DNA of 64,000 nt from Thermanaerosceptrum fracticalcis (GTDB lineage: Bacteria; Bacillota; Peptococcia; DRI-13), in assembly GCF_000746025.2 (NCBI RefSeq), contig NZ_CP045798.1, positions 248,001 to 312,000 of the forward strand, written 5' to 3'. The translations under genes and the position numbers were made by a program. Below the pieces are notes generated by a model. That model worked only from the letters and a program-made list of their open reading frames with translations. It was not told where the DNA came from and made no database searches. This document shows, piece by piece, positions 13,380-36,417 of the stretch (positions are counted from its first letter, which is position 1; each line of letters opens with the position of its first letter).

Positions 13380-14402
13380 ATGCCCTTTATACCTAAGCGT
13401 GTTTTTTTTGAGAAAGAGGCCTTAAATTATCCTTTAGGCGAAGAGCTTTATCGGCATTTCCGAAAGATTGGCATACCGGTCAATATGATTGGGACCCATA
13501 ACCGGGTCACGGGCATTCCAGGTAAGACTCCCCAGGAAGCCTACATGGAGGCTAAGCAGACCTTTGTGGTAGGGGTGCGCAAAACCTTAAAATTTGAGAC
13601 CTGCAAACCCTCCGCCCACTACCAGCTTCCCCTTTGTACAAGTTGTATAGGTAAATGCGAATATTGCTATCTCAACACCACGCTGGGAAAAAAGCCCTAT
13701 CTGCGGGTTTATGTTAATATTGAAGAAATACTGGACAGGGCCCAAGCATATATAAAGGAGCGTGCTCCAAAAATCACTTACTTTGAAGGTGCCGCCACTT
13801 CTGACCCTCTTCCCTTTGAAGCATACACAGGGGCTTTGGCGAAAACCATTGAGTTTTTTGCCAAGGAGAACCTGGGACGATTTCGGTTTGTAACCAAATT
13901 TACAGAGGTGGACTCACTTTTAAGGATAGAACATACCGGGCATACCCGGTTCCGGTTTAGCCTTAATTCCCAGCCTGTCATCGAAAGATACGAGCATAAT
14001 ACGCCGGGATTAAAGGAGCGTGTGACAGCCGCCGTTAAGGTGGCGAAAGCCCGTTATCCCTTGGGCTTTATTATTGCACCCGTGATACTTTATGAGGGTT
14101 GGCAGCAGGATTACCAGGCACTTATTGACACGCTGGCTCAGGAGTTACCGCCCTCCTCCACGGAGAACTTAAGCTTTGAGATCATTACTCATCGTTTTAC
14201 AGCGCGGGCCAAAAATAACATTCTTTCCATCTTTCCCAAGACGACACTGCCTATGAAGGAAGAGGAACGCCAGTTCAAGTTTGGCCAGTTTGGTTATGGT
14301 AAGTACGTCTATCCCAAAGTTGAGTTTAGTGAGGTGAAAGAATTTTTCACGGAACGTCTCTCCTTACGCTTTCCACATTGTGAACTCGATTATATTGTTT
14401 GA
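13380..14402 (+). CDS. splB: Spore photoproduct lyase (radical SAM)
   Basis: 340 residues, normal family length. The radical SAM motif CIGKCEYC (Cys89, Cys93, Cys96; CX3CX2C) is followed by YLNTTLGKKPY, and the family signatures VGVRKTLKFE, FRFVTKFTEVD and YPLGFIIAPVI are present. The enzyme reverses the thymine dimer called spore photoproduct during germination. Oddly, the position aligned without gaps to the conserved Cys141 of the Bacillus enzyme (H-atom donor in FEASCTSD) is Ala139 here (FEGAATSD). GGAGG lies 8 nt before the ATG. It is the first gene of a small run of spore-related genes (Ku and CwlD follow). Confidence 0.92.
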   Translation: MPFIPKRVFFEKEALNYPLGEELYRHFRKIGIPVNMIGTHNRVTGIPGKTPQEAYMEAKQTFVVGVRKTLKFETCKPSAHYQLPLCTSCIGKCEYCYLNTTLGKKPYLRVYVNIEEILDRAQAYIKERAPKITYFEGAATSDPLPFEAYTGALAKTIEFFAKENLGRFRFVTKFTEVDSLLRIEHTGHTRFRFSLNSQPVIERYEHNTPGLKERVTAAVKVAKARYPLGFIIAPVILYEGWQQDYQALIDTLAQELPPSSTENLSFEIITHRFTARAKNNILSIFPKTTLPMKEEERQFKFGQFGYGKYVYPKVEFSEVKEFFTERLSLRFPHCELDYIV

Positions 14403-14410
14403 ATTTCAAA

Positions 14411-14443
14411 AAAAGGGGAAGCCGCTTGCGCGGCTTCCTTTAA
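14411..14443 (+). terminator. Terminator after splB
   Basis: GGAAGCCGC / GCGGCTTCC stem, TTGC loop, followed by TTTAAT. Confidence 0.85.
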
Positions 14444-14561
14444 TATGATTGAGGAGGGAGAGAGTATGAGAGAGACTTGCTTAACCTTGCACTCATATTC
14501 TTTGCAAGGATAGGGGATAAATATTACTGAAAAAGATTGGTATTTACAAAGGAGAGTTGAG

Positions 14562-15386
14562 ATGCGAAACATCTGGAAGGGAGCTATATCTTTCGGATTG
14601 GTTAATATCCCCATCAAGCTTTATACCGCCACCGACCCTAAGGAAGTGAAATTTAATTTTTTACATAGACAGTGCAAATCTCCCATCAAGTATGAAAAGG
14701 TGTGTCCCGTTTGTAACGTTGAATTGAAAAGTGAGGACCTGGTCAGGGGTTATGAATACGAGAAAGGGCGTTATGTCATTATCGAGGAAGAAGACCTGGA
14801 GAAAATACCCTTAAGTACTTTAAAAACCATCGAAATCTTGGATTTCGTTAGCCTACAGGAAGTGGATCCCATCTATTATGTCAAATCATACTACATAGCT
14901 CCCGGCGATTTAGGGATAAGACCATACCGTCTTCTTTATGAAGCCATGAAACAAACGAGACGCATCGCTATTGCCAGGGTGGTTTTACGGCAAAAAGAAT
15001 CCCTGGCCCTTTTAAGGGTTTATGAGAATTGTTTGGTCATGGAAACAATTTTTTATCCTGACGAAATTCGCAACCCTGCTTTAATCCCGGAACTACAGGA
15101 GGAAGTCAATGTTCATGAAAATGAACTGAAGATGGCTATTAGCCTCATCGAAAACTTGACAGCAGAATTCAGGCCGGAGAAATACACCAATCACTACAGG
15201 CAGGCTCTCATGGAGTTGATCCAGGCAAAAATTACTGGGGAAGAGGTAGCTGTTCCTGTCCAGCCGGAAGCTGCCAAAGTAATAGACTTGATGGAAGCGC
15301 TTAAAGCCAGTATCGAGGCCGTCCAGAAAGAAAAGAAAGAAGCGGGGGAAAAAAAGAAGGCGGCAAGAAAGAAAAAAGGAGCCTAG
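14562..15386 (+). CDS. ku: Ku protein (non-homologous end joining)
   Basis: 274 residues. It opens with the bacterial Ku signature (IWKGAISFGLVNIPIKLY) and carries the core (YYVKSYYIAPGDLGIRPYRLLYEAMK, split here by wording). A CPVC pair near residue 50 and a long lysine-rich tail (EKKEAGEKKKAARKKKGA) match bacterial Ku, whose basic tail aids DNA binding and ligase recruitment. It binds double-strand ends as a homodimer. The partner LigD is not in the window. Next to splB it suggests a role in repair of dormant spores, as known in Bacillus. Good site GGAG before the ATG. Confidence 0.93.
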   Translation: MRNIWKGAISFGLVNIPIKLYTATDPKEVKFNFLHRQCKSPIKYEKVCPVCNVELKSEDLVRGYEYEKGRYVIIEEEDLEKIPLSTLKTIEILDFVSLQEVDPIYYVKSYYIAPGDLGIRPYRLLYEAMKQTRRIAIARVVLRQKESLALLRVYENCLVMETIFYPDEIRNPALIPELQEEVNVHENELKMAISLIENLTAEFRPEKYTNHYRQALMELIQAKITGEEVAVPVQPEAAKVIDLMEALKASIEAVQKEKKEAGEKKKAARKKKGA

Positions 15387-15450
15387 TAGCATAAGACATT
15401 CCTCTCGGGGCGTAAAAATTGGGTAAGTGGTCGTAAAGAGGTGGAGAGGA

Positions 15451-16152
15451 GTGTTGACACTGATCCAGAAGAGGCGGCCTACAGCCGCCTTCTTATTATG
15501 TCTTTCTTTGCTTTATACCTATTTCTGGTGGGTTACAGAGGTCCAGTGGGTGGTCCCAACGCTGAACGGGACCGGGCCGTTAAAGGGCAAGATCATCTGC
15601 CTTGATGCCGGGCATGGCGGCAGGGACCCCGGTGCGGTAGCGGGGAGAGTGCTGGAAAAAGACATTAATCTCGACATCACCAAACGTGTGGCAGTTCTTT
15701 TGAAGAAAGAGGGGGCAAGACCAGTATTGACAAGGACCCGGGATAAAAACATGGCTTATCGTCCTTTCCAGGGCAGCCTGCAGTTGGCCGGACTAAGGGA
15801 AAGAGCGCATATCGCAGAACGGAGCGGCGGTCATGTCTTTGTCAGCATTCACTGCAATAGTGAGGCTGAAGGGAAATATTCAGGGCCCCAAACCTTCTAT
15901 GAGAGGGGAAACAGCCGGAGTGCGCAACTGGCCCGCTTGATACAAGAAGAACTGGTACAGGTCCGCAGCACGGGACGCCAGGCTATTCCCGGAGATTACT
16001 ATCTTTTGTCATCAGCAAGATCTCCAGCCGTTATTGTTGAGGTGGGCTTTTTATCCCATGCCCGTGACCGCAGTTTGCTCACTTCACCCCCCTTCCGCCA
16101 GCAGGTAGCCGAAGCCATCGCCCGGGGGATTTTGAGGTATTTTAGGGAGTAG
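15451..16152 (+). CDS. cwlD: N-acetylmuramoyl-L-alanine amidase, CwlD type (spore cortex)
   Basis: About 233 residues. An N-terminal membrane/signal segment (AAFLLCLSLLYTYFWWV) is followed by an Amidase_3 domain. Zinc ligands: His in LDAGHGGRDPGA, Glu in LEKDINLD, His in VSIHCNSE; the catalytic Glu is in VIVEVGFLSH. The size and the single domain without SH3 or CWBP repeats fit CwlD, which acts with a deacetylase to form muramic-delta-lactam in the cortex. The start is uncertain: GTG 15451 or TTG 15454 follow GAGGTGGAGAGGAG; GTG at 15427 is also open. The gene lies downstream of ku. Confidence 0.85.
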   Translation: MLTLIQKRRPTAAFLLCLSLLYTYFWWVTEVQWVVPTLNGTGPLKGKIICLDAGHGGRDPGAVAGRVLEKDINLDITKRVAVLLKKEGARPVLTRTRDKNMAYRPFQGSLQLAGLRERAHIAERSGGHVFVSIHCNSEAEGKYSGPQTFYERGNSRSAQLARLIQEELVQVRSTGRQAIPGDYYLLSSARSPAVIVEVGFLSHARDRSLLTSPPFRQQVAEAIARGILRYFRE

Positions 16153-16316
16153 TATATTTTTGAATATGCAAGTATGGTGATAAATGTTAATTCTAAATAG
16201 GACATAAATTAATACAAAATTTATCATATTCGACAAAAAATTTCCTTTTTCTCCAAAGGATAACGGACAACTTTAGCGAATATCTACTTATAAGAAATTT
16301 AAGGAGGTGTAAAGTA

Positions 16317-16391
16317 ATGATTCGTTGGGCCGTTGTATTGACAGCTTTAGTTTCTATGTTGATGACAGCAGCTTCCGGCTGGCGCTGGTAG
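16317..16391 (+). CDS. Tandem micro-peptide, copy 1 (24 aa)
   Basis: A 24-residue peptide starting MIRWAVVLTALVSML and ending in ASGWRW. One basic residue at the start, a hydrophobic core of about 17 residues, then Trp-Arg-Trp at the C-terminus. The ribosome site AAGGAGG, 9 nt before ATG, is the strongest of the three copies. I know no family. The shape is that of a small membrane peptide, a type I toxin, or a pre-peptide whose C-terminal tetrapeptide might be released; none of these is shown. It lies in an AT-rich gap after cwlD. Confidence 0.75.
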   Translation: MIRWAVVLTALVSMLMTAASGWRW

Positions 16392-16430
16392 CAATAAGTA
16401 ATGTTAAGAGAAGAAGGGAAGTGTAAAGTG

Positions 16431-16505
16431 ATGATCCGTTGGGCCGTTGTATTGACAGCTTTAGTCTCTATGTTGATGACAGCAGCTTCCGGCTGGCGCT
16501 GGTAG
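16431..16505 (+). CDS. Tandem micro-peptide, copy 2 (24 aa)
   Basis: Encodes the same peptide as copy 1. The leader GAAGGGAAG is a weaker ribosome site. An ATG at 16401 is in frame 30 nt upstream and would add ten hydrophilic residues (MLREEGKCKV), but it has no ribosome site, so the short form is preferred. Confidence 0.75.
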   Translation: MIRWAVVLTALVSMLMTAASGWRW

Positions 16506-16544
16506 CAATAAGTAATGTTAAGAGAAGAAGGGAAGTGTAAAGTG

Positions 16545-16619
16545 ATGATCCGTTGGGCCGTTGTATTGACAGCTTTAGTCTCTATGTTGATGACAGCAGC
16601 TTCCGGCTGGCGCTGGTAA
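16545..16619 (+). CDS. Tandem micro-peptide, copy 3 (24 aa)
   Basis: Peptide identical to copies 1 and 2; ends in TAA instead of TAG. It is followed by ~95 nt of AT-rich sequence and then a terminator, so the three copies probably share one transcript. Confidence 0.75.
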   Translation: MIRWAVVLTALVSMLMTAASGWRW

Positions 16620-16716: not shown

Positions 16717-16747
16717 AAGCCTGGCATAAGCCAGGCTTCTGTATTTT
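16717..16747 (+). terminator. Terminator of the micro-peptide unit
   Basis: AAGCCTGGC / GCCAGGCTT with an ATAA loop and a T-rich tail (CTGTATTTTTAT). Confidence 0.85.
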
Positions 16748-16821: not shown

Positions 16822-17016
16822 CTATTCGACGGCCTTGTTCAAAGCTTCCACCAGTTTGTCGACATCAATACCGTGAACCATCGCTCCCTGGGCCAGGTTT
16901 TCAAAGCGGGCAGCAGCGCAGCCTAAGCATCCCATGCCGTGCTTCATAAACACATCAACGGTCTGGGGGTATTTCTGCACAATTTCAGTGATGGACATTT
17001 CTTTGGTAATTTTCAT
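16822..17016 (-). CDS. DUF1858 domain protein (hybrid-cluster-associated redox disulfide type)
   Basis: 64 residues, the whole protein being one DUF1858 domain: MSITEIVQKYPQTVDVFMKHG followed, without a break, by the CLGC pair (Cys30/Cys33), then a helical end. Such proteins occur next to hybrid cluster proteins or as domains of redox enzymes; the CxxC is thought to be redox active. AAGGAGG lies 7 nt before the ATG. Single-gene unit. Confidence 0.88.
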   Translation of the reverse strand: MKITKEMSITEIVQKYPQTVDVFMKHGMGCLGCAAARFENLAQGAMVHGIDVDKLVEALNKAVE

Positions 17017-19851: not shown

Positions 19852-20007
19852 ATGGAGGAAATGTTAAGTCATTTGGGGAATTATGGATTCCCCATGGTTG
19901 TAAGTATTTATCTTTTAGTACGGGTAGAAGGCAAACTGGAAAATCTAACCAACTCTATCCAGGAACTCAGTAAAGTTATCCAGTGCTGGAAGGAGGGTAG
20001 GTGCTAG
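19852..20007 (+). CDS. YvrJ-family small protein
   Basis: 51 residues, starting MEEMLSHLGNYGFPMVVSIY, the YvrJ family pattern: a short N-terminal part, one hydrophobic segment with a Gly-Phe-Pro turn, then an amphipathic helix (LENLTNSIQELSKVIQ). It ends in Cys. The gene begins 3 nt after the previous stop with AAGGGGG before it. Typical neighbour of DUF1659/DUF2922. Confidence 0.8.
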   Translation: MEEMLSHLGNYGFPMVVSIYLLVRVEGKLENLTNSIQELSKVIQCWKEGRC

Positions 20008-36121: not shown

Positions 36122-36417
36122 TGTATAAGCTTATTATTCTGCCTCCCGCCGCCCGTTTTTTAAAGAAGCTAAAAGACAAACCGCTTAAAGCAGCTTTTCA
36201 AAAAGCTGTCGATGAAATCCTCAAGGACCCTTATATAGGCGAATCCAAAACGGGCGATCTTTCCGGCGTTTTTTGCTATGATATTTATTACAGCAGAACA
36301 AATTACGAGCCGGCCTATACAATCATTGAAGAAGGCAGCTCAACCGTTGTTGTAATACTGGCCGGCACTCGTGAAATTTTCTATGAGGAATTGAAACAGT
36401 ACATGAAGAATATTTAA
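36121..36417 (+). CDS. RelE/ParE-family toxin
   Basis: 98 residues with the RelE/ParE pattern: a basic N-terminal strand and helices (ARFLKKLKDKPLKAAFQKAV), then strands GVFCYDIYYSRTNYEPAYTI and a closing helix. Members cleave ribosomal mRNA (RelE) or poison gyrase (ParE); which applies is not clear. Paired with the preceding gene and placed in a decayed accessory stretch. Confidence 0.8.
   Translation: MYKLIILPPAARFLKKLKDKPLKAAFQKAVDEILKDPYIGESKTGDLSGVFCYDIYYSRTNYEPAYTIIEEGSSTVVVILAGTREIFYEELKQYMKNI

Follow-up and report, generated by a model that had tools for sequence, protein, structure and literature searches.

Tandem micropeptide genes and a candidate DUF5317/c-di-GMP enzyme partner module in Thermanaerosceptrum fracticalcis

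The triple micropeptide locus

The window, a stretch of 64,000 nucleotides from the genome of Thermanaerosceptrum fracticalcis, contains three tandem genes on the plus strand that encode the same 24-residue peptide, MIRWAVVLTALVSMLMTAASGWRW. Copy 1 (16317–16391), copy 2 (16431–16505) and copy 3 (16545–16619) follow one another with start-to-start spacings of 114 and 114 bp, as found by a repeat search. Copies 2 and 3 agree at 113 of 114 positions, the sole difference residing in the stop codon. Compared to these two, copy 1 carries two silent changes in the coding part, with all other differences located in the leader. A preliminary description of the locus had reported one 24-residue peptide three times at an exact 114-bp period with only silent differences; the ORFs and repeat search reproduce the period, and the copy alignment agrees on the silent changes. 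Copy 1 is additionally backed by the genome search and the purifying selection described below. A near-perfect triple 114-bp repeat with intact frames, found in a second species as an orthologous pair, cannot be put down to chance. The three ORFs are confirmed as real genes, and the original observation stands.

The expression signals of the array are less uniform than first described. Copy 1 is preceded by a strong Shine-Dalgarno sequence, AAGGAGGTG, at 16301–16309 (+), identified by eye, whereas copies 2 and 3 have the degraded form AAGGGAAGTG, which corrects the earlier description of a ribosome site for each copy. An intrinsic terminator stem-loop at 16717–16738 (+), with a 9-bp stem, a T-rich tail to about 16748 and a fold z of −3.6, does follow the last copy as described, but lies approximately 100 bp beyond the last stop codon. 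The array is flanked by a CwlD-like N-acetylmuramoyl-L-alanine amidase (15427–16152, +), which scores below the NCBIfam CwlD cut-off, and by a convergent DUF1858 protein assigned by Pfam (16822–17016, −). Genes for a spore photoproduct lyase and then a Ku-domain protein (13380–15386, +) lie just upstream of cwlD and form a spore DNA-repair neighbourhood.

Relatives of the peptide and the DUF5317 operon slot

A fourth copy, 92% identical, turned up in the own genome (a single contig of 3.8 Mb) at C1:1051412–1051483 (−). Among 150 relatives, matches were found in three genomes, namely the congeneric Peptococcaceae bacterium M1_7_4_bin.22 (G001), Clostridia bacterium SV3-B14.1 (G004) and Firmicutes bacterium UBA2598 (G118), and a profile search of 398 genomes of the phylum added G156. 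In G001 the cwlD-side locus likewise carries a tandem pair, with one more copy elsewhere, and G004 has two tandem copies. Other weak profile matches (L017–L043) lacked DUF5317 and, with the exception of L016, were taken as chance.

In every pair of peptide genes that differs, pS exceeds pN. The G001 copies differ from each other by four synonymous and no non-synonymous changes, the two G004 copies show a pS of 0.48 against a pN of 0.06, and window copy 1 compared with the G118 gene gives 0.84 against 0.19. Selection therefore acts on the peptide, and its gene is conserved and under purifying selection. No Pfam or NCBIfam profile matched the peptide above cut-off. The earlier statement that no family matches is therefore correct for both collections, yet relatives can be found and are widespread. 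The closest approach to a named family was a sub-threshold MgtU match (NCBIfam NF040924, 20.1 bits against a cut-off of 33) in one Bacilli-like relative.

All copies outside the arrays occupy the same genomic position. The gene before them encodes a membrane protein, DUF5317 (PF17248), the gene after them an HD-GYP protein that begins with a membrane domain, and all are on one strand. This slot is occupied in the own genome, G001, G004, G118 and G156. As family members we counted hydrophobic ORFs of 24–36 residues with a Shine-Dalgarno sequence, with DUF5317 directly upstream and the gene of a membrane HD-GYP or GGDEF enzyme downstream; the 92% identical paralogue is such a gene, following DUF5317 and preceding a membrane enzyme. 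The window array, located about 0.8 Mb from the own DUF5317 operon, is an orphan that has the peptide and the promoter in common with the operon while the partner genes are absent.

DUF5317 is present in 118 of the 398 phylum genomes, and about 90 of about 126 places were inspected. Of 15 loci with DUF5317 ahead of the enzyme, all of them found through DUF5317, 14 have a hydrophobic micro-ORF with a Shine-Dalgarno sequence in the slot; in the opposite gene order, with the enzyme upstream, two ORFs were called in 68 loci. Slot occupancy thus differs between the two gene orders with a Fisher p of 7e-13, a value that overstates independence since the loci are related by descent. The two ORFs of the enzyme-first loci (L090, L122) bear no resemblance to the family, and we regarded them as spurious. 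In a Bacilli-like group, the peptide gene is followed by one for a GGDEF protein, whose membrane domain is comparable. Within one Bacilli-like family, 15 of 61 genomes have the peptide, and in every one of them it is flanked by DUF5317 and the GGDEF gene; this set was fetched via the peptide and is excluded from the 14 of 15. Tandem copies were also observed in the Bacilli-like genomes G465 (three) and G437 (two), and the slot of G163 holds two tandem copies of M..LMAR.GFIVVLLLSAWAGWRW. Tandem duplication recurs across unrelated lineages.

Besides the G163 peptides, three sequence groups were distinguished among the slot peptides: the window type (RW...TAASxWRW), a second group (MKKxFFWLTVASMVLAA.AKFPWH/R) and the Bacilli-like group (MKK...N..IVASVV.ALTSG[YF][KR]). 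The window and Bacilli groups align end to end in one register (S-x6-S-G-aromatic-basic) in hhalign, with P = 1.3e-4 and a probability of 53% obtained from very short profiles. A common ancestry of the Clostridia-type (SGWRW) and Bacilli-type (ALTSGYK) peptides is likely rather than proven on this basis. As a whole, the sequences delineate what we consider an unannotated family of predicted membrane peptides of 24–36 residues, present in many Firmicutes and without a Pfam or NCBIfam model.

The accompanying enzymes show weak MASE9 (PF20972) scores over their membrane domain in several loci. In L120:154–1956, MASE9, HD-GYP and DUF5317 are fused in a single 600-amino-acid protein, with MASE9 above cut-off. 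The fusion suggests that DUF5317 and the enzyme touch each other. AlphaFold models of DUF5317 and the HD-GYP protein, built from three-sequence alignments, were poor (mean pLDDT 49.6 and 54.4) and unsuited to a fold search, owing to too little alignment depth. Although the HD motif of the HD-GYP proteins in L012–L014 is intact, those of G001 and G004 have a degenerate GYP motif (HHLYYNGDKRGYND), so that phosphodiesterase activity is not to be presumed. In two distant genomes the module is followed by a beta-CASP/MBL-fold ribonuclease-like gene, at L013:6729–8345 behind separate module genes and at L120:2065–3696 behind the fusion. Searches of a paper library returned no paper on DUF5317 or on MASE9 in such use, and nothing relevant on small membrane proteins with HD-GYP proteins or diguanylate cyclases.

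The fixed position directly after DUF5317, which stays constant while the enzyme alternates between HD-GYP and GGDEF, would also suit a small subunit of a membrane complex outside c-di-GMP control, for example a DUF5317 stability factor for which sigma-H is only an operon passenger. We consider such a role improbable, as most DUF5317 loci, those of the enzyme-first type, do without the peptide and the window array has the promoter without DUF5317.

The slot further bears on the option, raised in the preliminary description by analogy with the E. coli ldr loci, that the array encodes a type I toxin. Such a toxin, or another small membrane toxin, would have its tandem copies restrained by antisense RNA. 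Size, hydrophobicity and tandem repetition are indeed ldr-like. However, an operon slot with two specific partners is kept across families, the peptide is under purifying selection, and no defence or toxin family matched. A sequence scan within the array gave no credible minus-strand promoter for an antisense RNA gene, the best candidate reaching 8/12 and the standard scan calling none. The Rfam scan of the locus returned no match at the gathering threshold. Type I toxin modules are often found in plasmids or phages; searches of both were without match, and a mobile-element origin was dropped. Taken together, these results render the toxin option very improbable.

The promoter block and sigma-H

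A 71-bp block preceding copy 1 (16212–16282, +) is retained in the G001 array and also precedes DUF5317 in the own DUF5317-peptide-HD-GYP operon and in that of G001, so that both G001 loci carry it. The core of the block (AAAGG-N13/17-TTAGCGAATA) occurs at exactly two sites in the 3.8-Mb genome, the array and the DUF5317 operon, while the reversed control gave none. Its restriction to these two sites makes it very probable that the window array and the own DUF5317 operon are co-regulated.

Within the block, a sigma-H-type promoter is predicted at 16255–16281 (+). The sigma-H consensus is RNAGGAWWW / RNNGAAT (PMC8510167), and we searched with the pattern RNAGGAWWW-N11/12-RNNGAAT. The window promoter, AAAGGATAA-11-AGCGAAT, matches perfectly. 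The −35 element of the own DUF5317 operon deviates (AAAGGGTAC) and is two bases short of the strict consensus, for which reason we rate sigma-H control of this operon as likely, not certain. Of 26 peptide loci, 9 have a strict match within 400 bp upstream of DUF5317, where chance would give 0.09; the reversed pattern gave none and the antisense control none. The sole match among 80 loci classed as peptide-less belongs to L045, which in fact bears the peptide. The nine matching loci come from four genera in two families and represent about four independent lineages in addition to that of the window. Independently of the window block, these predicted promoters support sigma-H control upstream of peptide operons.

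At the level of the whole genome, the pattern has 129 matches compared to 20 for its reverse. An exact 25-mer, AGGAAAAATTCCGTGTAAAAAGAAT, recurs at numerous sites of this genome (G000), for example at C1:47257, 49251, 51245, 196031, 196237 and 726629; three of the sites are 1994 bp apart, as in a dispersed or tandem repeat. The repeat inflates the pattern count and accounts for part of the excess. No textbook sigma-H target was recognised by eye among the first 30 genome matches, which leaves the enrichment over the reversed pattern as the only genome-level support. Two more sigma-H-type matches lie in the window at 19856–19881 and 36386–36411 (+), where 0.49 are expected by chance over its whole length.

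A possible 0A box, TTCGACA, is located at 16229–16235 (+) as a Spo0A site in reverse orientation. This single perfect 7-mer is frequent by chance in the window and absent from the G000 DUF5317 operon, and the assignment is suggestive only. A perfect palindrome, CGGAATATTCCG, which in L004 and L010, two different species, stands downstream of DUF5317 and about 45 bp before the peptide start, could be an operator. The sporulation role that had been left open on account of the spore genes nearby has gained support from the common sigma-H-type promoter, and not from the adjoining cwlD.

As the cwlD-side array is found in both species of the genus, it arose before they diverged. The gene immediately upstream of the DUF5317 operon in G004 encodes a CwlD-like amidase that is 33% identical to that of the window; both score below the CwlD model cut-off. 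One economical history would be the duplication of an ancestral amidase-DUF5317-peptide-enzyme locus, of which the cwlD-side copy kept the promoter and peptide only.

A candidate membrane micropeptide in c-di-GMP signalling

We postulate that the peptide is a single-span membrane component acting on a DUF5317/MASE9-type c-di-GMP module at the onset of sporulation, with the array supplying a co-regulated extra dose; we hold this reading to be marginally probable. Together with DUF5317 and a MASE9-type sensor-enzyme, the peptide would make up a three-part module, as a rule from one operon, the enzyme being a predicted c-di-GMP HD-GYP phosphodiesterase or GGDEF cyclase. One hydrophobic helix, about 17 residues between RW and WRW, would insert in the membrane, and the peptide may bind DUF5317, the sensor domain or both, setting enzyme activity upon entry into the transition or early-sporulation phase. 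The orphan array would raise the dose of peptide over the partner encoded about 0.8 Mb away. When we looked for one conserved helical face, as a packed helix should show, no significance was reached (p = 0.60 and 0.36), and the reading as a membrane component is favoured by context, not by geometry. In C. difficile, early sporulation gene expression is lowered by c-di-GMP (PMC8653836), and an HD-GYP protein lowering c-di-GMP at that stage would make sense. In the Bacilli loci, however, the enzyme next to the peptide is a cyclase, which implies that the sign of control differs or that the output is not always sporulation. The membrane-regulator option of the preliminary description thereby remains and gains a concrete partner; its pheromone option, a precursor releasing GWRW, remains as the main rival and is now tied to the same DUF5317 and membrane c-di-GMP enzyme.

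As a pheromone precursor, the peptide would be cleaved after S20 or A to free a short cationic aromatic peptide, which DUF5317 and/or the MASE9-type sensor would process or sense. The hydrophobic part would then be a signal-like segment, and cell density would be coupled to c-di-GMP. Candidate cleavages judged by eye are AAS|GWRW, AWA|GWRW, AIA|KFPWH and LTS|GYKIG; in alignments inspected by eye, all groups have S or A, a small residue, at the putative site, which suits a signal peptidase. The C-terminus is common to the copies within a genome and differs between genomes: of 15 changes within the arrays, a single one affects the last ten residues while the N-termini drift, whereas between genomes this segment takes 31–36% of the changes. 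Additional tandem copies would deliver a higher signal dose, and the sigma-H promoter fits phr-like genes, as Bacillus phr pheromone genes typically have one (PMC4147580). In the Bacilli group, however, it is the membrane core (N15, I18, S21, ALTSG) that does not vary, while the tail beyond it changes in sequence and length, the opposite of most pheromone precursors. The Pfam assignments show no exporter or protease encoded in the module, and no Rap/Rgg (TPR) receptor of the Phr/SHP type adjoins the genes, whose neighbours are DUF5317 with HD-GYP/GGDEF proteins or cwlD with DUF1858. We regard pheromone release as a tentative possibility, and rather doubt the more specific proposal that a sigma-H-driven, tandemly amplified micropeptide constitutes a new class of peptide signal sensed by a DUF5317/MASE9-type c-di-GMP enzyme. 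If true, peptide quorum sensing would be tied directly to c-di-GMP and the sporulation decision in spore-forming Firmicutes.

The family provides a conserved candidate partner or ligand, missed by annotation, for DUF5317 and MASE9-type sensors. It joins micropeptides, c-di-GMP and sporulation entry, which are usually studied apart. The module may offer a direct handle on the input of c-di-GMP to the early decision to sporulate, which the literature treats as an open question (PMC8653836). Its occurrence in Bacilli-like as well as Clostridia-like genomes makes it testable in tractable species.

Compared with known systems, one Bacilli-like peptide weakly resembles MgtU (NCBIfam NF040924) and the window peptide does not, and the present genes, unlike MgtU, have no magnesium transporter nearby. 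The short hydrophobic tandem genes recall the E. coli Ldr type I toxins, from which they differ by the lack of an antisense RNA signature, by conserved operon partners and by vertical-looking synteny. Bacillus Phr and streptococcal SHP precursors share with them very short genes, a possible C-terminal release, an adjoining receptor-like gene and, for phr, sigma-H promoters (PMC4147580). In contrast to those systems, the partner here is a membrane c-di-GMP enzyme in place of a Rap/Rgg receptor, and conservation in the Bacilli group is highest in the hydrophobic core, not in the tail. CydX, KdpF, MgtR, AcrZ and SafA are single-span regulatory micropeptides encoded beside their membrane partner. 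The present peptides are like them in a length of 24–40 amino acids, one hydrophobic helix, a gene adjoining that of a membrane protein and omission by standard annotation. No sequence relation to them was found, and the family differs by its DUF5317/c-di-GMP enzyme partner module, its recurrent tandem arrays and its orphan, probably co-regulated array.
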